From: Acidimicrobiales bacterium
GTDB taxonomy: Bacteria > Actinomycetota > Acidimicrobiia > Acidimicrobiales > JAVJTC01
Length of the DNA: 64,000 nucleotides
Assembly: GCA_040219085.1 (NCBI GenBank)
Contig: JAVJTC010000021.1
Coordinates: 1 to 64,000 of the forward strand
Direction: 5' to 3'
Of this stretch, positions 26,841 through 56,987 are shown piece by piece. The position numbers were made by a program, and so were the translations under genes. The notes below the pieces were generated by a model. It was given only the letters and a program-made list of their open reading frames with translations. It did no database searches and was not told the DNA's origin. Numbering within the stretch: the first letter of the stretch is position 1; every line of letters begins with the position of its first letter.

Positions 26841-26951
26841 TGCCGAGCTCGCAGTCCTCGCCGGACGAGGTGGGGCGTGTGTCACGGCTCCCCGGTACCG
26901 CGCGTTACGTCGGCTCCAACCCGGCTGTTCTACGGTGCAAGAAGTCAAGCG

Positions 26952-29900
26952 ATGCAGATCGACTCGGAGTGGTGGGGCGTGGCAGAAGGAACGATTGAGG
27001 AGGGCCCGGATGGGCTCGACAACGTAGCCGCCCTCATCGACTTTCTCGAGGCCTACTACCGCCTTGCGCGACCTCCGATCCGAGACATCGCAGACTTCGG
27101 CGAGTTTCGAAGCCGTGAGTCCAATCTGCCCGACGGTCCAGGGGTGCATCTATCCCCGAGTGCAGACGCCTGGTTGACGGCAGAGCTCGTCCAACACCCA
27201 TCCAGGCCCGAGATCCCAGATCATCTTCTTGGCTGGATCGACAAGTCGCAGCTCTCGCCGCACCAGCCACCAGACATCAGCCTGGACGACGACGCCACCG
27301 AAGAAGCGCTCGACGCCGCGATTGCGTTGGATACTTGGATCGACAACGAGTGGGAGCAGTGGTCCCGACGCTGGAAGCGGGTCGAGCGGTCTCGCGTCTT
27401 CTACAAGGACCTCTATGCCGTCAGGTCTCGCCTCGAGCGGGACCAGGACAGCTTCGAGCTCGTCTGGGGGTTCGGGCGACTCCGTTGGACAGTTGAGCAG
27501 GGCCGCATCGACCACCCACTGGTCACAGTCCCGGTCACCATCGACGTCGACTCGAACGGGCGCCTTCAGGTCTCGCCGGATGGCGCCCCGGTTATCGAGG
27601 CGACGTTCCTCTCGGACGTGAAGCTTGCCGACCACGCAGGGTTCCTGAAGGTCCGGACTGACCCAGCAACACTCGATGTCGATATCTGGGGTCCGGAGGA
27701 GCGCGGTGCGCTTCTTGACCACCTCCTCCGCCTCATCGACCACGATGGCGAGCGTGACCCGACGGGCCCGGCCGCCGGGTCAGCGATCGTCCACGACGAA
27801 TGGGTCATCTACCTACGACGCCGCCAGGCCGACTACCTCGGCTTCCTCCAGGCTCAACGACAGCTCTATGAGTCGGGAGAGACCCCATCGCTCCCCTTCG
27901 CGTCACTCGTCACGGAGCGTCCGTCCGAGCTACCCATCGAGCTCTTCGAGTCGACATCCACATCCGCGACTCCACGCGACGACACCCTCTATCTACCCAA
28001 GGAGGCGAACAGCGAGCAGGAGCGCATCCTCAGGCTCGCCCGGGACCGGCCGGGCGTGACAGCCCAGGGCCCACCCGGAACGGGCAAGTCGCACACAATC
28101 GCGAATCTTGTCTGCCACTTCGTCGCTCAGGGGAAACGGGTCCTCGTAACGGCGGAGAAGGAACAGGCGCTCGCAGTTCTCAACGAAAAGCTTCCCCCGG
28201 CCGTGCGCGAGCTCTCGGTGACCATCGGCGGGGGCGGCACTGCAGCCAATACGGCGATGGAGCGTGCAATCAGCACGATTCAGGACAGGGTCTCGGCCTA
28301 TGACGAGCGCGAGGTAGCTCGCGACATAGATACATACGCGACCGAAATACAGGAAATCGACGCCACCGTGGCCCTCGCAACCAATCAGCTACGTGAGGCG
28401 CGAGCGGCAGAGACACAGCGCCTCACCGGAGCCTTCCCGGTTGGCGATCCGGCAACGCCCAGCCGGGTAGCCGAGTGGGTTGCGGAACACCAGGGCGAGC
28501 TGTCGTTCATCCCGGACGTCCTCCCACTCGACCGACCATCGGTTCTGGACCCCGGCGAATGGGCGACCCTGTTGGATCTCTTGGCGCATCTGGATGTCGA
28601 CGATGTCGCCGCATGCGCACTCGAGCGTCCGATACCCGCAGACCTCGCCTCCGGCGGCGAACTCGCCCGGCTTGCACAAGAACTTCGCGACCTGCGGTCC
28701 ACCCTCGCAACGGTCGAAGATGGCATTGAGTCCTGGGAACAACTCGATGCCGGGCACGAGATGCTGACAGGGCTCCACGAGGACGTCACCGAATGTGCCG
28801 ACTGGATGAGAAAGGTCAGTGGCACGTGGCTCGACAAGGTGCGCCAGGAGTCCGCTGCGGCCATCGGCCGCGGAGAGTGGCAGGAATTCGCCGACGGCAT
28901 CAGCGCCGCTCGGGAAGCGGCCGTCACGTTTCGACGACAGACAGCTGCGCACGAGGTGGCCGTTCCTGGCGATCGAGACCCTGAGCTGGATGAGGGCCTA
29001 CGGGATGCGCGGCAGCGGTATTCGGCCGGCAAGGGCGTGTCGTGGGTGCAGCGCACAGCATCACGTGCGCTCGACCAATGCACCGTCGACGGTCACCTTC
29101 CGAGGACGGCTGACGAGGTCGATCTTTGTGTCGCGGCACTCGACCGGCAGGACCGGCAGCGCGAACTCACACGGCGGTGGCACAACGGAACCAGCCGGGT
29201 CGGCGGGCCGGAGCTCGACGGCGGGCGCCCGGCTGAGGACGCTGTCCAAGAGCACCTCGACGGTCTCACCCGAGCGATCAACTGGATCCCGGACGAGTGG
29301 CCCGCCCTCTCCGAGCGAGTCCGCGCCATGGGAATCCAGTGTCCCGCAGACCCCGATGTCGAGGACCTCGACCGGCTGGCAGAGACGCTGGGCGTTGTGA
29401 GCCGGCGAGCCCGTGAACGCGCACTTACCGCCTACTTCGACGACCTGAGGCGATACCTCGCCAACAAGAGCGGCGGCGAAGTCTCACCACTTTGGAACGA
29501 GCTGCGCGAAGCCCTCGAAAGTGAGCGGTGGGAAACGTGGGACCAGACGGTAAGCGAGGCTGCGCGCCTCGCAGCGCTGGAAACCAGAGCGGAACGTCGC
29601 CGGCAGCTGAGCGATCGCTTGCACGAAGTTGCTCCGAAGTTCTTGAGACAGCTCGAGACGATGGGCCAGCCCGACCTTCCCCAGCCAAGCATCGTCGAAC
29701 GCGCATGGACCTGGCGCCAACTCGAATGCTGGCTCGATTCGATTGCTGCACTTCCGTCGACTGGCGAACTCCAGCGGCAGTTGGAGCACTTGGCACGCCA
29801 ACGCCGCACCGCCATGGAGCGGCTCGTTGCTGCGAAGGCATGGAGAGGGCTCGCTCGGAACTTCACAGACGCCAATCGCATGGCCCTGAACAAGTACCTC

Positions 29901-32039
29901 ACGGCCGTGAAGCGCTACGGGAAGACAGGCGGCAAGTACGCAGCCCGGTGGCGGCGCGAGATGCGGGACGCGCTCAACGAGTCCAAAGATGCTGTTCCCG
30001 TCTGGATCATGCCCATCAGCCGGGCGCTGGAGAGCTTTCGCCCATCGTCGCCCACTCCCTTCGACGTCCTGATCGTCGATGAGGCGTCGCAGATCGGCCT
30101 CCTCGGGACTCCCGTTCTTGCTCTTGCGAACCGAGCGATCGTGGTCGGCGACGACCAGCAGACGAGTCCGGAGAACGTCGGACTCGAGCGGCAGGGAGTA
30201 TTCAACCTGATCGATGCCCATCTGAACGAGGTGCGCGATTCGCGCACTCTCTTCGACGGCGACAACAGCCTCTATGACGTGTCGAAGCAGAAGTTCCCCG
30301 AGGTCGTCTCACTCCGCGAACACTTCAGATGCCTACCGGCGATCATCCGGTTCTCGAACGGTCGCTACTACGGCGACATGATCCCACTGCGGGACAGGGC
30401 ACCTTCTCCGAGCTGGCAGCCGCTCGGCACTGTCTTCGTTCCCGATGGATTCCGGGACGGCGACGTCAACGAGCCCGAGGCACTCGCGACCGTCGACCTC
30501 ATCGCGGAGCTCATCGCCGACAGAGACTACGACGGGATGACCTTCGGCGTCATCGCACTGCTCGGCAAGCGACAGTCGTTGAGGGTTCAGGAGCTTCTCA
30601 TCGACCGCCTCGGCCCCGAAGTCCTCGAGGAGCGCCGGATCCGCTGTGGCGAAGCGGCGGACTTCCAGGGTGATGAGCGCAACGTGATCGTGTTGAATAC
30701 CGTCGTCGATCGCCCCGAGGGTCGACGCATCGGAACGTTCACCGACCGCAAGTCTGAGCGACGAATGAACGTGGCCGCGAGCCGGGCGAAGGATCAGATG
30801 TGGGTCGTCCACTCGATCCCTCCCGAGGACTTCCCGAATGGCGACCCTCGCGCAGAGCTCATCCGTCACTGCACGGACCCATCAGCGCTCGACGAGACGA
30901 TGGCGAACCTCGACGAGCTGACGGAGTCGCCCTTCGAGTCAGCTGTCCTCCGCGAGATTCTCGAGCGGGGCTACCGGACCGTGCGGGTCCAGCACGAGGT
31001 TGGGCACTACCGGATCGACATCGTGGTCGAAGGACCGAGCCGGTCTCTAGCCGTCGAATGCGACGGCGACCGGTGGCACACCGCTGATCAGTGGGACGCC
31101 GACCGGGCCCGTCAGCAGATCCTCGAGCGTGCGGGATGGACGTTCGAGCGGATTCGCGGAAGCAGCTTCTATCGAGACCGCAAGGCGGCGTTGGAACCGT
31201 TGTGGGCAAGGCTCGATGAGCTCGAGATTCCCACCGGCGACTGGGCGAGCGGCGGTGTGGAGCTCTCAACGCGACGAGTTGCCCCCACCATGGCCGAACG
31301 GCGCGAGATCGACCCACCTGAGCCGGTCGGTACGCCGGTGGCTTCTTCGGTCGAACCGGGACCGCAGCCGCCTAGGCTCGCAACAGAGGCCATCGCCGCA
31401 GCGACAGAGGTCGAACACGCTCCCTCCGCTCCTGACGACGCTGCTCCTGCAATAGCGCCCCCGACTCGCGAGGTGGCGCCCGAGCTAACCGAGGACCTCG
31501 ACCCAGGATCCTTGAAGAAGAGCAGCAGGCTGCTCTCGGAGTATTCGCCATGGACACCGCGGTCGCTGCACTCGGTGCACGATGGCGCCATCTCCCGGAT
31601 AGGCGAGGAGCTCGTCGAGATCGCGTCAGCCGAGGGCCCGATGCACGTCCTCTTCTTGTTCCAGGTACATGCCAAGGCATCAGGAAACCGCAGGGTTGGC
31701 CGCGAGATGAGGAGGTTCTATCTCGACGCATTCCGTGCGCAAGAGCAGCGTGGCCATCTCTCCACGCTCAACGACGACGTGGAGGACGACCTCGAGAAGA
31801 CAGTCGTCGTTCCGGGCCGCCCGTTCGTCATCGTGCGGCAACTCGGTCCTCGCCAGATCCACGAGGTTCCCCGAAGTGAGATCAAGACGCTCGCGGAGTC
31901 ACTCGGCTTCAGCGGACGGCTGAACGAGTCTGAGCAGCGGCACGTTCTTCGGGAGTACGGCTTGAAGAAGCTCACCCAGAAGACGGAGCACTACCTCGAC
32001 GGGTGCATCGCCTATCGGTGGTCCCCACCGAACTTCTAG
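26952..32039 (+). CDS. Giant SF1 (UPF1-like) helicase with Vsr/DUF559-type nuclease and DUF3320-like tail
   Basis: The 1695-residue product has, in order, an N-terminal regulatory region of the DUF4011 kind (about 1-360), Walker A AQGPPGTGKSHT near 373, a long helical insertion (about 430-1000), Walker B LIVDEASQIG near 1040, and motifs with DFQGDERNVIV and MNVAASRAKDQ near 1240-1275. A Vsr/DUF559-type nuclease follows (about 1320-1420; YRIDIVVEG, AVECDGDRWH), then a DUF3320-like C-terminal region. The helicase-plus-Vsr order is that of Hhe-type single-gene anti-phage systems. The start at 26952 is chosen because upstream in-frame sequence is intergenic in character. It overlaps the convergent nuclease gene by four bases. 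Confidence 0.85.
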   Translation: MQIDSEWWGVAEGTIEEGPDGLDNVAALIDFLEAYYRLARPPIRDIADFGEFRSRESNLPDGPGVHLSPSADAWLTAELVQHPSRPEIPDHLLGWIDKSQLSPHQPPDISLDDDATEEALDAAIALDTWIDNEWEQWSRRWKRVERSRVFYKDLYAVRSRLERDQDSFELVWGFGRLRWTVEQGRIDHPLVTVPVTIDVDSNGRLQVSPDGAPVIEATFLSDVKLADHAGFLKVRTDPATLDVDIWGPEERGALLDHLLRLIDHDGERDPTGPAAGSAIVHDEWVIYLRRRQADYLGFLQAQRQLYESGETPSLPFASLVTERPSELPIELFESTSTSATPRDDTLYLPKEANSEQERILRLARDRPGVTAQGPPGTGKSHTIANLVCHFVAQGKRVLVTAEKEQALAVLNEKLPPAVRELSVTIGGGGTAANTAMERAISTIQDRVSAYDEREVARDIDTYATEIQEIDATVALATNQLREARAAETQRLTGAFPVGDPATPSRVAEWVAEHQGELSFIPDVLPLDRPSVLDPGEWATLLDLLAHLDVDDVAACALERPIPADLASGGELARLAQELRDLRSTLATVEDGIESWEQLDAGHEMLTGLHEDVTECADWMRKVSGTWLDKVRQESAAAIGRGEWQEFADGISAAREAAVTFRRQTAAHEVAVPGDRDPELDEGLRDARQRYSAGKGVSWVQRTASRALDQCTVDGHLPRTADEVDLCVAALDRQDRQRELTRRWHNGTSRVGGPELDGGRPAEDAVQEHLDGLTRAINWIPDEWPALSERVRAMGIQCPADPDVEDLDRLAETLGVVSRRARERALTAYFDDLRRYLANKSGGEVSPLWNELREALESERWETWDQTVSEAARLAALETRAERRRQLSDRLHEVAPKFLRQLETMGQPDLPQPSIVERAWTWRQLECWLDSIAALPSTGELQRQLEHLARQRRTAMERLVAAKAWRGLARNFTDANRMALNKYLTAVKRYGKTGGKYAARWRREMRDALNESKDAVPVWIMPISRALESFRPSSPTPFDVLIVDEASQIGLLGTPVLALANRAIVVGDDQQTSPENVGLERQGVFNLIDAHLNEVRDSRTLFDGDNSLYDVSKQKFPEVVSLREHFRCLPAIIRFSNGRYYGDMIPLRDRAPSPSWQPLGTVFVPDGFRDGDVNEPEALATVDLIAELIADRDYDGMTFGVIALLGKRQSLRVQELLIDRLGPEVLEERRIRCGEAADFQGDERNVIVLNTVVDRPEGRRIGTFTDRKSERRMNVAASRAKDQMWVVHSIPPEDFPNGDPRAELIRHCTDPSALDETMANLDELTESPFESAVLREILERGYRTVRVQHEVGHYRIDIVVEGPSRSLAVECDGDRWHTADQWDADRARQQILERAGWTFERIRGSSFYRDRKAALEPLWARLDELEIPTGDWASGGVELSTRRVAPTMAERREIDPPEPVGTPVASSVEPGPQPPRLATEAIAAATEVEHAPSAPDDAAPAIAPPTREVAPELTEDLDPGSLKKSSRLLSEYSPWTPRSLHSVHDGAISRIGEELVEIASAEGPMHVLFLFQVHAKASGNRRVGREMRRFYLDAFRAQEQRGHLSTLNDDVEDDLEKTVVVPGRPFVIVRQLGPRQIHEVPRSEIKTLAESLGFSGRLNESEQRHVLREYGLKKLTQKTEHYLDGCIAYRWSPPNF

Positions 32040-32968
32040 CCTTCGACGCACCACGACAACCGCCGAGACTCCGCCGACCCGACGGCCACGAGTGGCGGTA
32101 GGCCGTCTATCTCGAAGTCCTCATGCAGAGCCGGGGCGCCATACAGGCCCCCCATCGCCCGGGCGAGGCGCCCGAAGAACGCGAGGAGCTCATCGCCGGC
32201 CGCGGCGACCTGCTCGGCGTACGCTGTCCCTTGGCGGCGCGCAGAGGGCAGCAGGTCATCCTTCCGCTTGAGTTCCATTACAACGAGACGTCGATCTTCT
32301 GGACGGACGCCGACCAGGTCGACGCGTTGCCCGCTCGGTAGTCGCCACTCGTTGCAGACGAACAAGACGCCGTCGAGCGGCAGTGTCAGGCGCGATCGCA
32401 ATGCCGCCGACATCATCGAGATGGAGAACTGCTCCTCGGGCTTCACCTCTGCCCTTGGGGCCTCGACGCGCCAGCTGGCGACAGCAGTCGCCAACTCGAT
32501 CGGGTCTACGGACAAGCCGCTGGAAGAAGTCACCTCCCTGCCGATCCCCACCAGCTTCGGCGAAGTCGGAGCGAGAGGGACAACCGTCAGGCCCCGTTCA
32601 GCCGGGCGGAGGTAGACCGGGCTACCGAGCTCCGCCTCGTAGCGGTCAAGGAACAGACGCACGTCGGCCGTCGCCTCCAACAGCTGCAGTGACCTCCAGT
32701 GTCCTGTTCGCACGGGCGGCCTGATCTCATTCGGCTCATTGCATTGGGCGGCCCCCCTCTTCCGCCAAACCTGAGCCCCGCGACTCCTCCGGTCGACCTT
32801 TTCGATGCCGACCTCGTGCGCCATGTTGCTCAGTGCGATAGCGAACTGCGACCGGTCTACATTCGGGTGAGCTCGCATGACGCTCGGATGCTCGATCACG
32901 TCGTGAGAGGTGAACTCGTCAGGAAGGTCACGGAGCGCCTGTGCCACAAGCTCGGGGCGGATGATCAC
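32036..32968 (-). CDS. Winged-helix-like and PD-(D/E)XK nuclease protein
   Basis: The 310-residue product has an N-terminal helical region like a winged helix (about 1-70; DEFTSHDVIEHPSV) and a C-terminal nuclease domain. The nuclease core is GQRVDLVGVRPEDRRLVVME followed by LKRK near residue 225, the D...ExK pattern with a strand in between. After it are a Tyr/Gln helix (GTAYAEQVAAAG) and a closing WCVEG. It is a predicted DNA nuclease or DNA-binding relative. The start is GTG at 32968. It is convergent with the giant helicase and overlaps its stop. The 176-base gap to the NucS-like gene upstream gives no clear promoter. Confidence 0.75.
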   Translation of the reverse strand: MIIRPELVAQALRDLPDEFTSHDVIEHPSVMRAHPNVDRSQFAIALSNMAHEVGIEKVDRRSRGAQVWRKRGAAQCNEPNEIRPPVRTGHWRSLQLLEATADVRLFLDRYEAELGSPVYLRPAERGLTVVPLAPTSPKLVGIGREVTSSSGLSVDPIELATAVASWRVEAPRAEVKPEEQFSISMMSAALRSRLTLPLDGVLFVCNEWRLPSGQRVDLVGVRPEDRRLVVMELKRKDDLLPSARRQGTAYAEQVAAAGDELLAFFGRLARAMGGLYGAPALHEDFEIDGLPPLVAVGSAESRRLSWCVEG

Positions 32969-33144: not shown

Positions 33145-34467
33145 TCAGCTGTCGTCGGAGTGGGTGACGCGCGAGGCGAGCACATCCACATCGAGCCGCT
33201 GCTGGGGATCCGCTGAACCATCTTCGAGGAACTGGACTCCTTCCGCCTCGAGACGCCTCCGGCACTCCTCCGGACCCCCTCCATCTTGTGACCTCCATCC
33301 AGGAGGAACTGCACCACGCACATTGAGAACGCGATGCGGGTTCGGGAAGTCATCATTGTTGGCTGCCATGTTGCCGATCGACATTGCGGCGGACGAGCCC
33401 CCAATCGCCACTCTCGAGAGATCTCCGTAGGTGGTCCACTCCCCTGGCTCCACACAGGCTGCGATCTTCGAAATCGTCTCGAAGTTGGCTTTCGCGCCAT
33501 TGTCGGGCGCGTCCTCGTCCGGCAGCTCTGAGAGGAAGTCAACGTAGAGAGCGGCGATCTCCATGAGCTCCGGGCCGGAGTACCACCGGTTACCAGATGG
33601 CCCGAGCGCTGACTCCACCGACTCAGCCGTGACCCCGTCGAAGAACTCCGCGAACGCTTCTGGGCCGTGGTTGACGCGCAGGCCCTTTCCCGCCTCGGGC
33701 GTCAGCACAATGAGGAACCGGTTGCGGTGACTGGCGGGCGTGATCATGATGCTCCGCGTGTAGGGGCGCGGGAAGAGACCCGCCTGCTGGGCTGCGTCGA
33801 CAATGCAATCGAAGCCTTCTTGGAGCCCTGCGCTCGCTGCAAGAGCGCGGATGTCGTCGACGGAACGCTTCTTGGTCTTCTGCTTCGTCGGCTGGTCCTC
33901 TTCGTCCTCGATCACCTCGCGCACGAGGAGCTGCTCGCCGCTCGCGAGCTCGAACACCTCGAAGGAGATGACCCTCAGTGGAAGGTCGAACGCTGCAACA
34001 AGGTTCGCGACGCGCTCCAGCCCAGGGTCTACCCCGGCACCGGCGACGATGATCGCGATCTCCCGCTCGTCCTCTTCGTCGTTGGCCAACTGGGTATCGA
34101 CTGCAGACATGACGTCGGTAGGCCCCGCAAGCTTCCCTGCACCAGATGCGCAGAGCTCGCGTAGAGCCTCTCCGTCGAGATCCCTGATGCTGGCTGCGTA
34201 GTCGAGCGCCTGCGCGACGACCTCCCGGTAGAGACGGTCGCGCTTGAGTTCGACGACGACCCAGCGATCATGCACGTCGAGGCAGAGCAGGTCGAGGTAT
34301 CCCCCATCGACCTTCAGCTGCCGGCCCACTACCCGGAGGCCATCCGAGAGCATCGTGGGGTTCGCCGCCACCCAGTCCTCGAAGTCGAGCTCCTTGGCCA
34401 TCGCTGACCGCTCGACCCGGCTCGGCTGATCATCGCCGACAGCCCATATCCGCACTTGTGAGGCCAT
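33145..34467 (-). CDS. NucS-like nuclease fused to an alkyltransferase-like (ATL) domain
   Basis: The 440-residue product has two DNA-acting ends. Residues about 20-95 match the NucS/DUF91 nuclease core: YLDLLCLDVHDRWVVVELKR gives D...ExK, followed by the VAQALDY helix. Residues about 330-425 match the DNA-binding domain of O6-alkylguanine methyltransferase: WTTYGDLSRVAIGGSSAAMS, then NPHRVLNVRGAVPPGW. The reactive cysteine of the PCHRV motif is replaced by proline, which makes it an alkyltransferase-like domain able to bind but not repair. The middle segment (about 190-320) is unassigned. The inferred job is cutting DNA at alkylated or modified bases. It is 14 bases downstream of the EEP gene and is probably co-transcribed. 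The start at 34467 is chosen by domain layout. Confidence 0.8.
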   Translation of the reverse strand: MASQVRIWAVGDDQPSRVERSAMAKELDFEDWVAANPTMLSDGLRVVGRQLKVDGGYLDLLCLDVHDRWVVVELKRDRLYREVVAQALDYAASIRDLDGEALRELCASGAGKLAGPTDVMSAVDTQLANDEEDEREIAIIVAGAGVDPGLERVANLVAAFDLPLRVISFEVFELASGEQLLVREVIEDEEDQPTKQKTKKRSVDDIRALAASAGLQEGFDCIVDAAQQAGLFPRPYTRSIMITPASHRNRFLIVLTPEAGKGLRVNHGPEAFAEFFDGVTAESVESALGPSGNRWYSGPELMEIAALYVDFLSELPDEDAPDNGAKANFETISKIAACVEPGEWTTYGDLSRVAIGGSSAAMSIGNMAANNDDFPNPHRVLNVRGAVPPGWRSQDGGGPEECRRRLEAEGVQFLEDGSADPQQRLDVDVLASRVTHSDDS

Positions 34468-34481
34468 AACCGGAGGGTAGG

Positions 34482-35225
34482 TCAGGGCCGTGACAGGTGC
34501 CTGAGATCCATGACGACGCCGTCGTGGTCGCTCATCCGCACGCCGCCAGCGTCGTTGGGCCACGTTTCGACGGACTCGACAGTCAGGCCCCGAACGGCGA
34601 CGTGGTCGATGAGGCGCCGTTCGACTCCCGGAACCTCACCGGCCGTGGGGATCGCGAAATCATCGAGGATCGCTGCGAGACGTTCGGCGACATCTCGGGG
34701 CTGGCGCGTGCGTGGGATACGCTGGTTGAAGTCCCCGGCGACGATCACCTTCTCATTCGGCGACAACGCTGAGATATACCTGCCCAGCGAGTCGAGGTAC
34801 CGGCGATGGTCGGCCCACGCTGTGGCCTCTCCCGATCGGACCCGGCTGTGCGACCACGGGATGCAGACGCCCACGGTGCGAACCGGGCCGAACGGGGAGT
34901 CGACCGACGCCGCTACGAACCTGCCAGGAACGCTGTCGTCACACACGGACGTCTCGACGTCGTTGAGCGGCATGCGGCTCGCAATGACAACCTTGCGCTC
35001 GTCGTCGCCCAGGTGCGACAGACCGGCAGGCCCGGCCGATGCGCGGTGCCACCCATCTCCGAGATGATCGAGATGCGCCTCGGTGAGCACCGCCACATCC
35101 GGTGCCACGGCCGCGAGATGTGCGAGAGCAGCGCGCCCCGTCGGCGTCGTCGGCCGCCTCCGCTCGAGGTTCCAGGTGGCAATCCTCACCCTGTGACCGT
35201 ACGCGTCGGAGAGGACACGACACAT
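34482..35225 (-). CDS. Endonuclease/exonuclease/phosphatase (EEP) family protein
   Basis: The 247-residue product has the EEP fold motifs: IATWNLE near residue 14, a glutamate in LTEAHLD near 47, VAGDFNQR near 162, and the closing SDHDGVVMDL with the catalytic Asp-His near 235. Family members cut DNA, RNA or phosphate esters using magnesium. A GTG twelve codons in is an alternative start. It is first in a leftward unit with the NucS-ATL gene and divergent from mcrB, 51 bases away. A decayed copy of its last codons lies at 24668-24772. Confidence 0.85.
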   Translation of the reverse strand: MCRVLSDAYGHRVRIATWNLERRRPTTPTGRAALAHLAAVAPDVAVLTEAHLDHLGDGWHRASAGPAGLSHLGDDERKVVIASRMPLNDVETSVCDDSVPGRFVAASVDSPFGPVRTVGVCIPWSHSRVRSGEATAWADHRRYLDSLGRYISALSPNEKVIVAGDFNQRIPRTRQPRDVAERLAAILDDFAIPTAGEVPGVERRLIDHVAVRGLTVESVETWPNDAGGVRMSDHDGVVMDLRHLSRP

Positions 35226-35276: not shown

Positions 35277-37625
35277 ATGGCGCGAATGCGGGAAGCGGAC
35301 AGACAGATCGTCTACGAGGAGGGCGAGGCCCTCCGGGAGGAGTGTCTGATCGCAGGCCGCTCCCTCTTCATCGAAGGGGCCGAGGTCTGGACCAGCGACA
35401 GGTTCGCCGAGCTGATGGACCGCTTTGTCAAGGCCCCAGAGCACGGTGATGCCTCGTTCATGGCGAAGCTGGAAGGCCAGATGGCGGACGTCTCGCCCGC
35501 GGGTCGACAGCTGATGGCAGAGCTTCTCTACGTCTACTTCCTGGCCGCGCACCAGATGACCGCAAATACGAAGCAGGAGCAGCTCGACACGATTCTCGGC
35601 TGGGGCGCCCCTCTTGATTCCGTGCCCGATGCGAAGTTGGAGCTACTAGGGACCGGCCTGGTCCACACGGGCACGTACTTCATGACGAAGCGTGACCTCC
35701 AGCTCAAGTTCCTGGTCGAGCTCGGCTCGCACCTTTGGACTCTCGACACCAGTCAACGCCGGGACCTTGTCGAGGACCCGTGGGCCTTCTCGGAACTCAC
35801 GGCGGACCTCGCCGGCAATCCGGCGTTCCCTCAGAGGTCAGGCCTCCTTCACCTCATCCACCCTGACCAGTTTGAGGCGATCCTCTCGCGGGACCACAAA
35901 CGTCGAATCAAGGAGGCGTTCTCCGCTCGGCTTTCCGTCGTTCCAGGTGACCTGGACAGGGCCCTCTACGAGATCCGGCAACAGCTCGAACCCGAGTTCG
36001 GACCCGGCTTCGACTACTACGACCCGACCATCGAGACGAAGTGGAACCCGAAGAAGATCGGAGCGTGGGACAAGGTCGTCGAGCTGGCCAAGGTGCAGTT
36101 CGACGACACGTTCGACGCCGACGAGCGGGAGTACAAGCTGGAGATCGCAGGCCGTCTGCGAGACGTCCGGTCCGCGCTTCTCGCCGGCGACGACGAATGG
36201 CCGCAGCTGTTCCGCCGGGCGATCCAGAGCGGTTCCAACAACTTGACCGCGTGGCGTTCCACGGATGACCTTGCGAAATGGGCCATCGCCGAGCCGGAAG
36301 ACGCCGGGGATGCCCTGAGGGCAGTCTGGGGCGACAACGAGGCAGACCTGGATGACATGGCTGCGTTCCTCGACCGGCTTCCTGAGACCGTCGTCTCGGG
36401 TCCCGGGACGCGGGCGTCGTTCGGAGCGCTGATGTTGTTGGCGTTGGACCCGGAGAACTACCCGGTCTACCGGGCGACGGCGTTCGGCGATCTCTACAAG
36501 CTGACAAGCACCACGCCACCGCCGGACGGGTCCGATGAGGTCGCCACCTATGACCACGCGATCGCGCTTCTGGATCAGATGCTCGAGGAGTCCGCTAGCC
36601 GGGGGCTCGAGCTGCGGGACCGCCTCGACGCGCAGGGCGTGTTGTGGAGAGTCATCCACCACGAGAAGGAGGCGGCCCAGCCAGCGCCACCGGACGGCGA
36701 CGACCAGACGGATGGACCCGAGACCACGGCCGACTCGCTTCTTGTCGGTGATCTCAGCAAGCTCGCCTCCGACCTGCTGATCGATGTCGGCTTCCTCGAC
36801 ACGTTCACCTGGCTTCTCGAACATCGCTCCCAGGTCATCCTCCAGGGACCGCCCGGAACCGGCAAGACGTACCTCGCGCGGCGGTTCGCGAAGCACTTCG
36901 CCGGCGAGGACGGCTCGGTGGAGCTCGTGCAGTTCCATCCGTCCTACGCCTACGAGGACTTCGTCCAGGGCTTCCGCCCGAAAAGCGACGGTGGGTTCGA
37001 GCTCCGGTCGGGACCGCTGATCAGAGCGGCCCGCCGGGCACAGAAGGCGCCCCGGGCCCCGCACTTCCTGATCATCGACGAGATCAACCGCGGCAACATC
37101 GCCAAGGTCTTCGGCGAGCTCTACTTCCTCCTCGAGTACCGGGACGAGACGGTCACCCTCCAGTACGACGAGGAGCCGTTCGGCCTTCCGCGCAATCTCT
37201 TCGTGATCGGGACGATGAACACGGCGGACCGGTCGATCGCACTCGTGGACTCGGCGCTGCGACGCCGCTTCCATTTCGTCGACCTCTTCCCTGACCGGCC
37301 ACCGGTAGCCGGGCTGCTCGACCGCCACCTGGAGAAGACCGCTCCGGACCTCCAGTGGATCGCGGAGGTTCTCGACCTCGCGAACACAAAGCTCGGTGAC
37401 GCCGACGGCGCCGTCGGCCCCAGCTACTTCATGCGGGAGGGACTCACCGCGGAGGAGATCCCCCTGCTGTGGAGCCACGCCGTTCTCCCCTACCTCGCTG
37501 AGCGTTTCTTCGGGGATCCGGATCGACTCGATGCATTCTCGCTCGAGTCCCTCCGCCGCGAGCTAACAGGCCAGCCACGAAGCGACGTCGAAGCCGAAGA
37601 TGATGCGCCACCTACGGCTGACTGA
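35277..37625 (+). CDS. mcrB: McrB-like AAA+ GTPase of a modification-dependent restriction system
   Basis: The 782-residue product has an N-terminal region of about 490 residues without a known DNA-binding domain, then the McrB motor. Walker A is LQGPPGTGKTYLA near 522, Walker B is LIIDEINRGNIAKVFGEL near 597, and the McrB signature GTMNTADRSIALVD is near 645, with a sensor arginine in SALRRRFHF. McrB hexamers hydrolyse GTP and drive DNA cleavage by McrC at methylated sites. The N-terminal specificity region is long and differs from E. coli McrB, so the modification recognised cannot be stated. GAGGGAG is upstream of the ATG. The stop lies inside mcrC, with 26 bases overlap. Confidence 0.9.
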   Translation: MARMREADRQIVYEEGEALREECLIAGRSLFIEGAEVWTSDRFAELMDRFVKAPEHGDASFMAKLEGQMADVSPAGRQLMAELLYVYFLAAHQMTANTKQEQLDTILGWGAPLDSVPDAKLELLGTGLVHTGTYFMTKRDLQLKFLVELGSHLWTLDTSQRRDLVEDPWAFSELTADLAGNPAFPQRSGLLHLIHPDQFEAILSRDHKRRIKEAFSARLSVVPGDLDRALYEIRQQLEPEFGPGFDYYDPTIETKWNPKKIGAWDKVVELAKVQFDDTFDADEREYKLEIAGRLRDVRSALLAGDDEWPQLFRRAIQSGSNNLTAWRSTDDLAKWAIAEPEDAGDALRAVWGDNEADLDDMAAFLDRLPETVVSGPGTRASFGALMLLALDPENYPVYRATAFGDLYKLTSTTPPPDGSDEVATYDHAIALLDQMLEESASRGLELRDRLDAQGVLWRVIHHEKEAAQPAPPDGDDQTDGPETTADSLLVGDLSKLASDLLIDVGFLDTFTWLLEHRSQVILQGPPGTGKTYLARRFAKHFAGEDGSVELVQFHPSYAYEDFVQGFRPKSDGGFELRSGPLIRAARRAQKAPRAPHFLIIDEINRGNIAKVFGELYFLLEYRDETVTLQYDEEPFGLPRNLFVIGTMNTADRSIALVDSALRRRFHFVDLFPDRPPVAGLLDRHLEKTAPDLQWIAEVLDLANTKLGDADGAVGPSYFMREGLTAEEIPLLWSHAVLPYLAERFFGDPDRLDAFSLESLRRELTGQPRSDVEAEDDAPPTAD

Positions 37626-38823
37626 GCACCGACCGTCGACGACATCGCTCACTTCCGAGGAGCTGAGTCGACTCCGCAAGCTCGTCCCGTCCGTCTCCAC
37701 CACACCCGGTGACCGGGACGGGGAATGGATACTGAAACCGGGGTCATCGGTCGGCATCGTGCGCGACGATCACCTCGTCGTCGAGATCCAGCCGAAAATC
37801 GGGATCGAGCGCCTGCTCTTTCTCGTGTCGTACTCACTTCAGCCGGACATGTGGGCCGACCTCACTGCGCCAATGCGCTCGGACCAGACGCTCGTGGACG
37901 CGATGGCGACGATCCTCACCCGAGCGGTCCGCTCCGCGTTGCGAGCCGGGGTCATCCAGGCCTACGAAGTGAGAGAGGAATCCCTCCTGACCGTGAAGGG
38001 CCGAGTCCGGTGGAGCGACCAGATGAGGACTCACCACGGGCGGCTTCTCCCCATCGAGGTGTCCTACGACGAGTTCACCGAGGACAACCTCCTCAACCAG
38101 ATCCTCAAGTCGGCGCTCATCGAGTTGGAGAGGCTCCCCTTCCGAGATGAGACGGCAGCTCGTGAGCTCAGGTCGACCGCACAGCTTCTTGCAAACGTCT
38201 CCTACCGACGGTTCGATCCGAACCGTCTGCCGACGCCGGCCTTCAACCGCCTGAACGCCCACTACAAGACGGCGGTCCTGCTTGCCCTCGTGGTCCTCGG
38301 TCGGTCTTCGAGCGAGGCGGGCGCTGGATCGGTCAGTACCGCGACCTTCCTGATCAACATGAACCAGGTGTTCGAGGACTTCGTCACCGTCGCCCTGCGT
38401 GAGGCGCTCGGGCTAACCGAGTCGCAGTTTCCCCAGAATGCGGCAGGCCGACGCCTCTTCCTCGATGCTGACCGGAAGATCGGACTGGAGCCGGACCTCA
38501 GCTGGTGGGAGGGAGAGCGCTGCGTCTTCGTCGGCGACGTGAAGTACAAGCGAACGAACGCTGCCGGGATCCTGCACCCAGACCTCTACCAACTCCACTC
38601 CTACGTCACTGCGACCAAACTCGAAGAGGGGCTCCTCGTCTACGCAGCCGGGGAAGAGACCGACGCCCTCCACGAGGTGCCCGGTAGCGGGAAACGACTA
38701 CGGGTGACGACCCTCGACCCCTCCGGTCAGCCCGACGAGATCCTCCGAGCTGTCAGCGACGTCGCAACTTCGATCATCGAGATCCGCGGCGCCGAGCTGC
38801 CCGTCATGGCGTACAGTGCGTAA
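37600..38823 (+). CDS. mcrC: McrC-like nuclease subunit
   Basis: The 407-residue product matches McrC: an N-terminal beta region that stimulates McrB (DHLVVEIQPKIGIERLLFL near 65), then a PD-(D/E)XK nuclease with LEPDLSWWEG and FVGDVKYKR near residue 300, giving D...DxK. Two adjacent ATG codons (37600 and 37603) are possible starts. The 26-base overlap with mcrB couples the two. The 3' end overlaps the convergent EVE-nuclease gene by 20 bases, so two modification-dependent enzymes meet tail to tail. Confidence 0.9.
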   Translation: MMRHLRLTEHRPSTTSLTSEELSRLRKLVPSVSTTPGDRDGEWILKPGSSVGIVRDDHLVVEIQPKIGIERLLFLVSYSLQPDMWADLTAPMRSDQTLVDAMATILTRAVRSALRAGVIQAYEVREESLLTVKGRVRWSDQMRTHHGRLLPIEVSYDEFTEDNLLNQILKSALIELERLPFRDETAARELRSTAQLLANVSYRRFDPNRLPTPAFNRLNAHYKTAVLLALVVLGRSSSEAGAGSVSTATFLINMNQVFEDFVTVALREALGLTESQFPQNAAGRRLFLDADRKIGLEPDLSWWEGERCVFVGDVKYKRTNAAGILHPDLYQLHSYVTATKLEEGLLVYAAGEETDALHEVPGSGKRLRVTTLDPSGQPDEILRAVSDVATSIIEIRGAELPVMAYSA

Positions 38824-39799
38824 AGGTCTTCTTCGCCTTGCCTGAGACGTAGGCGACTTCGACGTCGACCGCTCGAAGAAAGTCGAGGTTGTCGTCACTT
38901 GGCTTTCTTGGGAGAAGGAGCCGGAGCGTCGGACGCGTGTCGTGAAACCTCGCGTAGTCGAAGAGCTGACCAACGGCCCCTCGGACGGCGCCGGTGGTGC
39001 TCCGGTTCTTCGCTTCGATCAGCACCTCGCCATCGATGTCATAGACGTCGGAGATGTACGGCCTTCCACCTGCCTTCCGCTGGTAGTAGGTACGTCCGAC
39101 GGATGTCTTCGACCAAAGATGCTTGATGTATCGCTGGACCAGCTCCTCTTCGAGGTTCATGGCCCGCGAGAACATCGAGACTCCGGGCTTGTCGACGATC
39201 CGCTTTACGGTGACGCGCTTTCCTAACCTCGGCAGCGGCAAGGCCGACGGCGGGACCCTGAGCCCCTGGACGTCAGCCTGGTCGGCTGCCGAAGCCTGAT
39301 CGAGAGGAAGAGCATCGCTGATTCCAAGGCGACTGTGAGCGGCCCATAGCTGCTCGACTGTCGCCGCCACGTCCTCCGGAACCCGGGTGCCGCTCTTCAT
39401 GATCCACCAGTGCCAGCCGGTCCGGTCCTTCAGGACCTCGACCGGCAGCTCCGCGTCGAGCGGCTCAACCCGGTCCCACTCGATGTCGACGTAGGGAACC
39501 TGCTTCGCCGACCGCTCGGACTCCCACGTTCGATCGAAGTACAGGTCGGACGTGATGTGACCGCTGGCGAGAATCCCCCGAGGCGCATGATCCCCAACCC
39601 TTAGAAAGAAGATGCGATCACCAATCTGGACGTCGGAGTTCTCAGTGGCTGTGCCGAAGGACCAGCTCGTCGTCCAGACCTCTGAGTCGATTCCAGCGGC
39701 CATTTCATCCCAGGCCTGCTCGAACTGCTCGAGGTCCTCCAACGGTGGCCACTTCTTCGGGTTCCAGATCAAGAGAAACGTTCTGTCGTACGTCGCCAT
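38804..39799 (-). CDS. EVE-domain and restriction-endonuclease fusion
   Basis: The 331-residue product has an EVE/PUA-like N-terminal domain (about 5-130): FLLIWNPKKWPP, then GDRIFFLRVGDHAPRGILAS and YVDIEWDRV. EVE domains bind modified cytosines in DNA by base flipping. Residues about 215-330 hold a nuclease domain with DVYDIDGEVLIEAKNR near 265, giving D...ExK, then GAVRGAVGQLFDYARF. The pairing of a modified-base reader with a nuclease is the plan of type IV restriction enzymes. GGAGG lies six bases upstream of the ATG. It is the last gene of the leftward defence operon, nine bases after the 271-residue gene. Confidence 0.85.
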   Translation of the reverse strand: MATYDRTFLLIWNPKKWPPLEDLEQFEQAWDEMAAGIDSEVWTTSWSFGTATENSDVQIGDRIFFLRVGDHAPRGILASGHITSDLYFDRTWESERSAKQVPYVDIEWDRVEPLDAELPVEVLKDRTGWHWWIMKSGTRVPEDVAATVEQLWAAHSRLGISDALPLDQASAADQADVQGLRVPPSALPLPRLGKRVTVKRIVDKPGVSMFSRAMNLEEELVQRYIKHLWSKTSVGRTYYQRKAGGRPYISDVYDIDGEVLIEAKNRSTTGAVRGAVGQLFDYARFHDTRPTLRLLLPRKPSDDNLDFLRAVDVEVAYVSGKAKKTFTHCTP

Positions 39800-40624: not shown

Positions 40625-42747
40625 GGGAGGAATTCGCTCGGCTTGCCGGCCCAGCCGATCCAGAGGTCGTCACGGGCTCGGGTGCACGCCACGTAGAGGA
40701 GGCAACGCTCCCGCTTCACGTCGAGGTCATGTTGGAGCCGGTCGACCCCTGCAGCGGTTATCGCCTTCTGCGACGGAACCGAGTTCGCGTCCACGTCGGG
40801 CAGGGCGACGCAGCGGAACTCGAGCCCCTTCATCCGATGCATCGTTGCCACCCGCACCCCGTCCTTGGAGACGAGGTCACTCCTCAGCTTCAGCGACGGG
40901 AACCCGGCGGCCTTCAGGGCCGACTGGATCGTCTCATGTGACCCACCCGCACGGGTTGCGATACCGATGTCCTCCAGCGCTACTCCGTTCTCGTGCCACC
41001 GCTTCACGCGCTCGACGAGGGCATCGAGTTGCTCCTTGCGTGACCCGAACCCTTCGACCATCGGCTCGGGACCGGAGAGGAACGAGTGATAGCCGGCGAG
41101 CTCGTGGGTGTCGGCCCCTTCATCAAGGTCGTCGAAGCTCTCGCCCTCCAACAGATTCAGGGACCAGCGCAGGATCTCGAAGGTGGTCCGGTAGTTGATT
41201 CGCAGCTTCTTGGACCTCCCGACGATGTGAATGCCGACCTTGGCGAGGGAGGACTGCCGGTCGTAGATCCGCTGGTGCGTGTCACCGACGATGAACATGT
41301 CGTCGGGCCCCTCGTCCACCGCCGCCCGCAGCATCCGCCACTGCGTCTCGTGGAGGTCCTGAGCCTCATCGACGATCACGTGGCGGTACGGCTTGACGCT
41401 CCGATTCGCCAGGTAGCCGGCGGCGTCCTCGGCGAGCTGGAGCATCGACCGCTGATCACTGGAATCGAGGCGGCGCTTGAGTTCCTCGACCGCCTTCCAC
41501 AGCCTCGCCCGACTGCGACGGTCGAGTCGGACGCCGCGGCCGGCCCGGCTCGCCTGGAAATACTCATCCCGTGATTCGATCCCCTGGGCAAGGATCACGT
41601 GCTCCCACTCTGCGGCGAGGAACTCGGGCGTGTGGTCGATTCCGTAGTCATCGACGATCTGCTGCCAGACCTCCCGCAGGTCCGAATCAAGGATCTTCCC
41701 CGGGCCGGAACCCTCCGCTCCCTGCACGATGCGGTGCGAGAGCGCATCGACGTTGATCACGTCGATGACTTCGAGCAGATCCGACCCGCCGAGGAGCCTG
41801 AGTTCCCGCTCGATCACCTGGGCCAGGTTCCGGGTGAAGGTCGTGAACAGGATGGGCTTGCCGCTGCCGCTTCCGTCCAGCTGCTCGGCTAGGTGCTTCG
41901 CTCGGTGCATGGCAACAACGGTCTTGCCGGTTCCGGCGCCACCGGTCACCCGGGCCGGTCCGGAGTAGCTCGGCCGGTAGGCGACCTCCTTCTGCGTGTG
42001 GTGGAGGAACGTCCGCCACTGCGCGAGCGGCAGCGCCAGCATCTCGGCGAGCTCGTCCTCATCGGTGACCACATGGAAGGACTTCTGTGATGCTGGCGCG
42101 TTCAGCGCGGCGGCGACGTCGGCGGTGTCGACCTCACCGGGCACCAGGCTGCCGGCGAGCTCGCGATACAGAGCTTCGACGGTGTCGTCGCCGGTCAACA
42201 TGATGAGCGCCTCGGCGACGGTCTGGGGAAGAACGCTGATGAGCGCCTCCAACTCTCCTTCGGTGGTGAGTGCCCGCACCGCCGGAAGAAGATCCCCGTC
42301 GACACCGAGGTTGGTGAAGTCCTTGTCCTCGCGGTGGGCGAAGAGACGGTCGGCTTCGGGCTCGGGTTCGGACACCCGACCCACGGCTTCTTCGATCTCG
42401 ACCAGGTTGAGGATCTCGAAAGCGCCGGTCACCTCGTTCACCCGGAAGGTGTTCTGGCGCATCCACCTGTCCACCTCGTCATGGGTGCCGATGGACGTCA
42501 GGACGTAGTGCTCGTCGTCACCTGCGTCGAAGACGATGCCGCGATGGTTGTCGTCGATGCGGATCGTCCGTGCCCGGGGGTCCGCCGCATCCTTGTAGGC
42601 CTCGAGATGGAGGCCTTTCAGGTCCCGAAGCTGCTGGGCGGTACAGCGTTGGAAGGTGTCCGCTATCTCCGCAAGCTTGGTCTGTGCTCGACGTTCGAGC
42701 TTCGCGAACTGCCCGAGCATCTCGACTGACAACGCGAGCGTGGCCAT
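40621..42747 (-). CDS. UvrD-family helicase with N-terminal RelE-like toxin domain
   Basis: The 708-residue product has two parts. Residues 1-110 resemble RelE/ParE-type toxins: FAKLERRAQTKLAEIADTF, then ARTIRIDDNHRGIVFD and the typical YVLTSIGTHDEVDRWM end. Residues about 235-708 form a UvrD/Rep helicase with Walker A GGAGTGKT near 264, Walker B VDEAQDLHE near 457, FIVGDTHQRIY, the GVRVATMHRMKGLEF motif and CTRARDDL near the end. An antitoxin gene is not adjacent, so the RelE-like part is probably an RNA- or ribosome-interacting sensor or a regulated effector. The start shares one base with the stop of the DUF1998 helicase gene; the stop overlaps the next gene by four bases. Confidence 0.85.
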   Translation of the reverse strand: MATLALSVEMLGQFAKLERRAQTKLAEIADTFQRCTAQQLRDLKGLHLEAYKDAADPRARTIRIDDNHRGIVFDAGDDEHYVLTSIGTHDEVDRWMRQNTFRVNEVTGAFEILNLVEIEEAVGRVSEPEPEADRLFAHREDKDFTNLGVDGDLLPAVRALTTEGELEALISVLPQTVAEALIMLTGDDTVEALYRELAGSLVPGEVDTADVAAALNAPASQKSFHVVTDEDELAEMLALPLAQWRTFLHHTQKEVAYRPSYSGPARVTGGAGTGKTVVAMHRAKHLAEQLDGSGSGKPILFTTFTRNLAQVIERELRLLGGSDLLEVIDVINVDALSHRIVQGAEGSGPGKILDSDLREVWQQIVDDYGIDHTPEFLAAEWEHVILAQGIESRDEYFQASRAGRGVRLDRRSRARLWKAVEELKRRLDSSDQRSMLQLAEDAAGYLANRSVKPYRHVIVDEAQDLHETQWRMLRAAVDEGPDDMFIVGDTHQRIYDRQSSLAKVGIHIVGRSKKLRINYRTTFEILRWSLNLLEGESFDDLDEGADTHELAGYHSFLSGPEPMVEGFGSRKEQLDALVERVKRWHENGVALEDIGIATRAGGSHETIQSALKAAGFPSLKLRSDLVSKDGVRVATMHRMKGLEFRCVALPDVDANSVPSQKAITAAGVDRLQHDLDVKRERCLLYVACTRARDDLWIGWAGKPSEFLP

Positions 42748-45700
42748 CAGCCGTTCGCCTTCGTCGCTTCGACCAGCTCGTCGACCGTCCAGTCCCCGGC
42801 GGAGCGGACATCCCAGCCTTCGACGGCGATGTCCACCTCGTCCGGGACGACGGCGATGCGCTGCTCGGGCCAGGCGGCCTCGAGCGCATCGCCGTCTTGA
42901 GTCTCGTAGCCGGCGGTGAACACAGGGGCTCCGGCAGCCAATGCCACCCGCGCGAGGGTCCGCACTGCGTCGTCCACGACGAACTCCAGCTCCTCTTCCA
43001 TCTCGGCGGTCAGCTCGACCTCATCGACGGGCGACTCGTCCTCGGGAACCGTGACCGCAGACGATGCGTGCGCGGCGATCCAGAGCTCGTCGAAGGGTTC
43101 CAGATCTTGTGTCGCCGTTCCGATCACCACGTCGCGTCCCACTCCTCGGATGAACTGTGCCAGGTTCGCCCACTGGAGCCAGTCCTGCCAGCGCGTCCGG
43201 TGCTCGTCGGACGCGACGGTCTCGTCGTCGTCGGGCAGGATCGACAGCACCGCCCAACGCTCCTCGGTGGACTTCGCACTGTCGAACAGCAGAGCAAGCA
43301 CCAGGTCATTCTCGGTGACCGGCCGGGCGAGGACGACAGCGCCTTCACCCGGGATGAAGTCGACGGCCTGACCGGCCAAGACGGCCTCCCCGACGCGCAC
43401 CAACTCGGACTCCGGCAGGTGTTGCGGAGCAGCATCGGCCCACAGGCCCGCGCACAGCGACAACGCGAGGCGCTCCCATGCGTCGCCGTCGGGGTCAGCC
43501 AGGTACTGCAACAGCAGCTGGTACGGGTTACGTTCGGCGTCGTCGATGCCGAGGCGGCCGTGGTTCTGCTGTTGGACGACCTTCGCCTTGTTTCTCGCTC
43601 CCGGTCCGAACAGCCGCCGACGCCGGGGCTCCTTCGACAACTCCTGTTCCACCGAGCTGTGGAACGCCTCCACGTCGTCCCAGGTCAGGTTCCACACCAG
43701 CATCCCCGTCGAACGCAGGCCCGCACGCTTCGCGGCGTCCTGGCCGATCACGTTGTGGTCGCTGGAGGCGTGGAACTGGAACCCGTCTAGATAAACGGCG
43801 ACCTTCGGGGCCTTGGCGTCCTGCCGGGTGATGACGAAGTCCGGGACGGTGTTGGGCGAGGTCATGATGCCGTCCACCTGTTCCTCGATCTTGTAGCGGA
43901 CGGCCTGACCATCAGGGCCGGTCAGCCGTAGCTCGAATGCCTCCGAACCGCTGTCGGCGGGCACCGGCTTCAATGTGACCTTCTCGTCGCCCTCCTTGCC
44001 GGCCCATGCCCGCAGCGCCACCTTGAAGCGCCTCTCCAACTCGGACTCCTCGACTGCGCCGATGTCGATGTCGGCGAGGGCGGCAACGGGCTCGGGGTTC
44101 CAGTCGCCGAGGAGGTCGTCGAGGAGGGCGATCGCGAGGTCACGCCGGGCCAGGTCGTACTCCCACCGGTCGATCACGCCGAGCAGGCACCGGTGACACG
44201 CGGCGCGGCCCTCAGCCTGGCAGGGGCACTTCGAGACGATTTCACGAGCAGACGTGAGGATGCTCCGCAACCGATCGGGGTCGGCGAGGCGGCTGAGGTA
44301 CCCGGTGCCGCCGGGGACGTTGTCGAAGAGCACAAGGAACTGGCGGCGGCCCTGACCGCCCCGGTTCGGGAGGTCGGTCCGGGCGATCTCGAGGTGGTCG
44401 GGATCGCCGCCGAAATCGGCCCGGAGCCCGAGCAGCAGCGCCCCTTTGAAGCTGACGAGCCGTTCATCGATCTCGAACATCGAGACCGGCAGCAGCATCC
44501 GGACGGCCTCGGTTTCGAGCTCGTGGTAGAGGACGATGCTGTCCCACCGCTCGCGCGCTGCACCGGACCGCACCTTGCACCAGCCCTGGTGGAGGCGGTC
44601 GGGGCGCTCACCTCTCTTGTCGTCGCGGGCGTCACGAGCGGCCCCGCAGTGGCGACAGATCTCGAAGCCGGTGACGTGGCGGTCGGCGCCGGCGATCGGG
44701 ATGCGATCCCCCGGGCGCTCGGCAAAGCCGAAGTTGTAGGTGCGGAGTCGTGCGACGTCGGCCCGTTCGGCACCGAAGACCTTGTCGCCGAGACGCCATG
44801 ACCCGCTGGTGTGGGCCGGGTCGATGTCAACACTGGTGAGGGTCTCATAGTTCTCGCGGTCGCGGTCGTCCCGCTCGTCGTAGACGCGAGCCCGCTCCTC
44901 GGAGTCGGTGGACAGCGCCGCCTTCATCGGCAGGAGCGTCTGGCGAGACCCGACGTCGAGGATGGCAGCAGCGCCACATCGCGGACACGCCGTGGGTGGC
45001 TCTTCGCCTTCGAGGGTGCCGAACCCGCAGTCGGGACAGAGCCGCCACGTCTCGTAGAGCGGCTCGTCCGCGGTGCCGATCTCGAGGGCGTCGACCACGT
45101 GGCGGTGGCCGCCGGCGTAGAAGCTGTTACCGGGTGCGAACTCTCGGACGGCGAGGCCGGCTGCCCGGGCGTACTCGGTGCTCTCGGACTCGTACTCACC
45201 CTCGGCGTCGGTCCACCACAGCGTGGCCGTGAGCGTCGCCGTGTCGTCGACCAGCGTGTAGTTGGGCAGGATTCCGAGCCGTTCGAGCGCGCTGAGCGTG
45301 TACTGGTTCCGGTGGTCAGCCAGAAGCCGACGCACGACGGTGCGCTGACCGAGCAGTGAGCTGACCACCTCAGATTCCTCGCCTGCTTCCGTCGCCCGGT
45401 CGATCCCCTCGGTGAGACGGCGTTGCCGGTTGACCAGGTCCCGCTCGTGGTCGCGCCACCGGTCGATTGCGGCCTTGATGGTCTGTTCGATGCCGCTCGA
45501 CGCCCAGTCCCTGAGCCGATCGGCGGTCTCGTCGCTCAGACGGTCTCCGAACAAGTCGAGGAATCCGGCCACCGCATCGGGGTCCAGCGCGGACACCTCG
45601 ACGATGCGACGCAGCAATGAACCCTCGTCGATGCCGGCGGCCATGAGCGAGCGGATCTGGGGCTGGATCGGCGGCGCGTCGATCGAGAGGTCCGCCACGC

Positions 45701-56737: not shown

Positions 56738-56987
56738 CGAGTGGCCAGGCTCAGAACCATGTCGGGGTGTCTGTACCCGGCATTCGTGACAACCCGGTTG
56801 GAACCACTTCGCGCCGCCTGACTCGCTCCATCGGGCCACCGTAGCAACACGACCAGCGCCGGGAGGGAAGGCGACTCCGGCGCGCTGCTGCCGGGTTCGC
56901 GATACTCACATGAGCCCAGAGCATGCCGACGGGACATGTCACGGCACTCCCGTACCGACGGTGCGAAGGGAAGGCAAGGCGGATCGA
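56738..56987. promoter_or_regulatory. Divergent intergenic region between two defence units
   Basis: These 250 bases separate the starts of the leftward SNF2 gene and the rightward 1091-residue gene and must hold both promoters. No box pair, palindrome or hairpin stood out well enough to name. Confidence 0.4.

Follow-up and report, generated by a model that had tools for sequence, protein, structure and literature searches.

A NucS-type nuclease joined to a cysteine-less alkyltransferase-like domain in an Acidimicrobiales defence island: a candidate modification-dependent restriction enzyme

The window, that is the whole 64,000-nucleotide stretch of an Acidimicrobiales contig that was analysed, carries a gene that joins three parts in a single unbroken frame including the stop: a NucS-type nuclease, a middle domain, and an alkyltransferase-like (ATL-like) domain devoid of the acceptor cysteine (Table 1). 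The product has 440 amino acids counted from the ATG at 34467, and its codon-position GC is as expected for a coding gene. A GTG at 34563, upstream of the ATG, is a possible alternative start; the ATG is preferred because the PDC-S11 relatives align from it with no offset.

Table 1. Position and supporting evidence of the fused gene, its parts and its nearest neighbours
Feature	Position	Strand	Evidence
NucS-type nuclease, middle domain and Cys-less ATL-like domain in one CDS	33145..34467	-	frame, translation, Pfam, codon-position GC
PDC-S11/NucS-type PD-(D/E)XK nuclease module, residues 1-200	33868..34467	-	PF01939; PDLC04916; EndoMS/NucS structural match
Catalytic motif D59 ... E73-L-K75	34243..34293	-	invariant in alignment; aligned to 2vld VD...ELK
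Middle domain, residues 203-320	33508..33861	-	C-terminal homologue in a GmrSD protein
ATL-like (alkyltransferase-like) domain, Cys-less, residues 326-435	33163..33492	-	Pfam, profile, model, tree
PNPHRV (residues 375-380) replacing alkyltransferase PCHRV; Pro377 at the Cys position	33328..33345	-	translation; alignment to Atl1 W56
Endonuclease/exonuclease/phosphatase-family gene, 14 bp upstream of the fusion gene	34482..35225	-	PF03372 E 2.9e-13
310-aa gene downstream of the fusion, weak PDC-S11-like nuclease motif C-terminally	32036..32968	-	E 4.6e-5
McrB/McrC-like type IV restriction pair	35277..38823	+	AAA_5 and McrBC Pfam; NF008457 and NF007277 below cut-off
PDC-S37-like helicase-nuclease	26877..32039	+	PDLC05009 E 2.4e-65; MTES_1575 E 5.7e-30

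Regarding the setting, the neighbouring genes bear out the defence island proposed in an earlier note on this DNA: the island includes a PbeA-like helicase, the PDC-S37-like helicase-nuclease, McrBC, two DruE-like proteins, a type IIG/DrmMI-like methylase and a DrmD-like helicase. The PF03372 gene is possibly cotranscribed with the fusion gene. Beside McrBC, the gene at 38804-39799 (-) matches EVE weakly (PF01878, E 3.6e-4, under its cut-off), and its C-terminal part reads like a PD-(D/E)XK nuclease; it is a possible second reader-nuclease. The two DruE-like helicases are distinct (42747-48974 on the minus strand and 60260-64000 on the plus strand, the latter reaching the window end), and the island protein of 1117 amino acids at 56910-60263 (+) was matched by nothing in Pfam or PADLOC at the thresholds applied.

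As for the nuclease half, Pfam NucS_C (PF01939) matches residues 26-96 over its cut-off (E 1.7e-8), and D59, E73 and K75 are invariant, together with Q86, in an alignment of five sequences; the D...ExK core read earlier at the N terminus is thus confirmed. In an AlphaFold2 model of the protein, built on a 14-row alignment, this part is of fair quality for residues ~20-130 (pLDDT about 70-88 for residues 20-110), and VIA-align places it on EndoMS bound to DNA (5gke, Z 10.2) and on NucS (2vld, Z 9.8, rmsd 1.9 Å over 85 residues); Foldseek agrees with the VIA-align placement of both the nuclease and the ATL-like domain. The fold and motif shared with the mismatch endonuclease NucS/EndoMS are those of its C-terminal PD-(D/E)XK catalytic domain, whereas the N-terminal half is absent: only about 20 residues precede the match to the NCBIfam NucS equivalog NF003270, which is limited to profile positions 125-206 and scores 46.5 against a cut-off of 216. 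Elsewhere, the host genome encodes a separate canonical NucS (133 bits) and one MGMT with the PCHRV motif. A housekeeping NucS was rejected as an identity for the window protein because of the missing N-terminal part and the canonical copy, and on the same grounds mismatch cutting in the manner of NucS is not supported for it.

In PADLOC, residues 1-200 match PDLC04916, a model of PDC-S11 (E 3.6e-37), the match covering positions 1-197 of the 358 of the profile and not the whole of it. By sequence, the nuclease half belongs to this candidate defence family, while the C-terminal half differs: the close PDC-S11 relatives bear another C-terminal domain instead of the middle and ATL-like domains, and usual members end in a weakly EVE/YTH-like domain or in DUF4268. 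The usual PDC-S11 C-terminus had no PDB match in a sequence search, and its model is of low confidence (pLDDT 60, with Foldseek E-values above 0.1); the best eight VIA rows were all of EVE/DUF55 type, including VcaM4I, at Z of only 4.5-4.8, and its EVE-like nature is a lead, not a finding. Raoultella and Klebsiella plasmids carry a related nuclease with DUF4268, and on the Raoultella plasmid the gene for this PDC-S11-type protein (L135, 4004-5179) lies between hsdS and hsdR.

Across 296 genomes a single relative of the middle domain turned up, where a GmrSD protein ends (L164 in genome G510; E 2.1e-4 genome-wide, 3.8e-7 locally). Searches with the middle domain gave no plasmid match and no meaningful PDB match; its fold is poorly modelled, with pLDDT mostly below 55 and low confidence over most of residues 130-320. 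GmrSD enzymes have been reported with DUF4268 and with PF01035 (PMC4619093); since DUF4268, PF01035 and the middle domain occur in both, PDC-S11-type nucleases and GmrSD enzymes use a common set of appended domains.

In the C-terminal part, PF01035 matches residues 332-411 with an E-value of 3.7e-5 that lies below the cut-off (23.9 vs 27 bits). The profile of the C-terminal family matches Atl1 (3gva, E 2.7e-8), and it places every MGMT below Atl1 and a Vibrio ATL. The model is confident here (pLDDT 88-97 for residues 330-440), and its best structural match is Schizosaccharomyces pombe Atl1 bound to DNA (3gx4, Z 12.7, rmsd 3.0 Å, 100 residues), with human AGT bound to DNA at Z 10.0 (1t38), both by VIA-align. 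Modelling, which the earlier note had suggested as a check, therefore returns an alkyltransferase fold, and the change from PCHRV to NPHRV that it had pointed out is found as described: in residues F374-P375-N376-P377-H378-R379-V380 (FPNPHRV), Pro377 takes the place of the Cys and Asn376 that of the Pro before it. An active alkyltransferase was accordingly rejected, as the acceptor Cys is absent.

The MGMT C-terminal fold and the missing acceptor cysteine are both traits of ATL proteins; the base-flipping pair of Arg plus Tyr is incomplete, Tyr347 being retained and the Arg finger replaced by Met362, and the domain is therefore called ATL-like and not an ATL protein. In the pocket of Atl1, P50, W56 and R69, whose roles are described in PMC10779285, align with Asp, Pro and Gly of the window protein, in a comparison that used an Atl1 sequence checked at five published positions only; the alignment of the motif was independently the same in the search with the C-terminal family profile. 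These replacements, with Met362 for the base-flipping Arg, weaken the case for O6-alkylguanine as the ligand, which is not supported. In comparison with Atl1 and the bacterial ATL proteins, then, the domain shares the fold, the absence of the acceptor Cys and the flipping Tyr, whereas its Cys position holds Pro, preceded by Asn, where they have Trp/Ala, Met replaces the Arg finger, RVL stands for RV(I/V), and the domain also has a conserved C-terminal extension and is fused to a nuclease.

Twenty relatives of the ATL-like domain were collected. Cys is found at the acceptor position in none of the 20, with Ala, Pro or Gly there instead, so the loss that was noticed in one protein holds among its homologues; the flipping Tyr and the Arg of HRV occur in all of them, W before TTY in 19/20, and the C-terminal extension is a further trait. 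In a maximum-likelihood tree with canonical ATL and MGMT domains the Cys-less clade comes out as monophyletic, with support 98/95, and has two branches: one (99/94) with the window domain, HTH-fused and stand-alone proteins, and the other (94/91) with GmrSD type IV fusions and a second type of NucS (PDC-S11) fusion. Five of these type-2 NucS-ATL proteins were found (L016, L078, L081, L083 and L096); their hosts belong to Chloroflexota or share the class or order of the window. The window and type-2 fusions probably arose independently, since their ATL domains lie on different branches; a further sign is that their nuclease halves best match different PDC-S11 models (PDLC04916 for the window, PDLC04909/04913 for type-2). 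The one scan of contigs, confined to two peptide patterns, gave six loci. The exact architecture of the window protein (type 1) was seen in no other genome searched, and searches of viral contigs and of phage records found, within their sensitivity, neither the full protein nor its ATL domain.

The Arg finger follows the architecture: it is present in all six HTH-fused or stand-alone members, and it is Gln, Met or Ile in 11 of the 12 nuclease-fused ones; L061 and L082, of ambiguous architecture, have Met and Gln. Because neither the finger nor the Atl1 pocket residues are conserved, base reading by the nuclease-fused members may be lost or altered. As for single members of the clade, a stand-alone gene (L074, 2152-3395) lies, by eye, head to head with a MutM/Fpg-like gene. 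Two others have an HTH-like N-terminus before the Cys-less ATL domain, in L073 (692-1384) from a weak match and in L075 (6614-7351, adjoining a type I R-M locus) by eye; these HTH-ATL proteins may be regulators that respond to modified or damaged DNA.

The neighbours of homologues, whose listing had also been recommended, point to restriction. Among type-2 genes, one has HsdM/S/R directly beside it (L113), another has HsdM and HsdR by Pfam and HsdS by tblastn (L112), and a third adjoins a gene for an Mrr nuclease (Mrr_cat, L115). In one tblastn panel, restriction genes lay near 8/18 clade loci (the window, L112, L113, L115, L075, L138, L139 and L147, the gene itself not being counted) vs 0/15 canonical ATL/MGMT loci (Fisher p 0.004), and near 6/16 vs 0/15 (p 0.018) once the window and L113, the sources of the panel queries, were removed; these p-values are indicative only, with small sets, unequal flanks and a panel partly built from the same loci. 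The set of 18 was fixed after the output had been seen, and it left out the short contigs L074, L140, L142 and L143 and the doubtful clade members L146 and L148.

The window protein holds a nuclease and a candidate reader of modified bases, which may together form the pairing of type IV enzymes. The explanation that we favour, with moderate confidence, is a restriction nuclease of a type IV-like, modification-dependent kind whose reader can be swapped. The ATL-like domain would dock in the DNA minor groove via its HTH, as Atl1 does, and its pocket would read a marked or distorted base and not accept an alkyl group, a transfer that is impossible with the cysteine gone; the N-terminal NucS/PDC-S11 PD-(D/E)XK domain would then cut the DNA, and the middle domain would probably be an extra module for DNA contact or dimerisation. 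The targets would be phage or plasmid DNA whose modified bases make it resistant to the restriction systems next door. That the protein binds DNA, reads a base, cleaves and acts against phages is what we infer. The earlier proposal of reader and nuclease in one protein is carried by the folds, the lost Cys and the setting; O6-alkylguanine is not favoured as the ligand, and other modified bases are possible. Of the two purposes it had allowed, repair or restriction, the latter is better supported, by homologue architecture and neighbourhood.

Rather unlikely, yet the strongest competitor, is a domain that acts as a mere minor-groove HTH tether to DNA or to a partner, with specificity coming from the nuclease, the middle domain or an adjacent restriction complex. 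The non-Arg finger of the nuclease-fused members, the lost pocket residues and the PDC-S11-type genes inside or beside type I R-M operons are in its favour, but the conservation across the clade of the Tyr, the HRV Arg and the W before TTY suggests a conserved site and not a generic HTH. A DNA-repair nuclease, which would incise DNA where its ATL domain has marked O6-alkylguanine or similar damage, as has been suggested for the ATL-EndoV fusions of archaea, is unlikely for the window protein. ATL proteins do bind O6-alkylguanine and pass it on for excision repair, both AGT and, in archaea, ATL are known as fusions to EndoV (PMC10779285), and one stand-alone clade gene and a MutM-like gene are divergently oriented; against this, the Arg finger is lost along with P50, W56 and R69 of the Atl1 pocket, the genome already has MGMT and NucS, and the relatives sit with restriction systems while canonical ATL/MGMT loci do not. 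The stand-alone and HTH-fused members suit repair or regulation too. Finally, a toxic nuclease of abortive infection, whose reader senses phage-made DNA and whose nuclease degrades DNA indiscriminately, is very improbable: the defence island and the PDC-S11 genes on viral or prophage contigs would fit it, but no associated antitoxin-like gene was identified, and the observations here do not set it apart from direct restriction.

Returning to the modification-dependent nuclease, a broader form of it, which we rate as quite unlikely, would make the Cys-less ATL clade a general type IV reader module, moved between the unrelated nucleases of GmrSD and at least two PDC-S11 subtypes; it would flip and read a purine that phage DNA carries in modified form, such as 2-aminoadenine (dZ). 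Atl1 also binds 2,6-diaminopurine, and it is from this binding, and nothing more, that 2-aminoadenine is suggested as a candidate ligand. Such a module would bring new chemistry to modification-dependent restriction.

ATL-type domains on nucleases are already known, from GmrSD and EndoV. The archaeal ATL-EndoV and AGT-EndoV proteins (PMC10779285) likewise fuse an alkyltransferase-type domain to an endonuclease, whereas theirs is EndoV, they are discussed as repair proteins, and the AGT version is an active alkyltransferase. A like logic is that of BrxU, a GmrSD enzyme that cuts modified DNA beyond the reach of its companion system, and in whose structure an obvious pocket was not seen (PMC8565348). 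Within the reach of the searches, what appears new is the NucS-type fusion, its probable repeated origin, and a Cys-less clade tied to restriction enzymes; no NucS and ATL fusion was found in the literature searched, whose coverage of subscription journals was thin. If the favoured explanation is true, anti-phage nucleases would have taken up a damage sensor of DNA repair more than once as their recognition part, ATL-like readers would join those of EVE, SRA and YTH type, purine modifications would be indicated as targets, and the recognition of modified DNA by some GmrSD-type and PDC-S11 enzymes would have a concrete explanation that can be tested.

A close precedent comes from Machnicka et al. 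2015 (PMC4619093), who described GmrSD (DUF262-DUF1524) enzymes, of type IV, that end in PF01035. These enzymes too pair a defence nuclease with an MGMT-type domain of the same Cys-less ATL clade, and one GmrSD also carries the middle domain of the window protein; their nuclease is instead ParB-like plus HNH, both DUF262 and DUF1524, by which GmrSD enzymes are recognised, are absent from the window protein, and its ATL domain is on a different branch of the clade. One GmrSD-ATL gene (L149, 9209-11759) is in two frames with the break inside the ATL domain, possibly through a frameshift, a sequencing error or decay.
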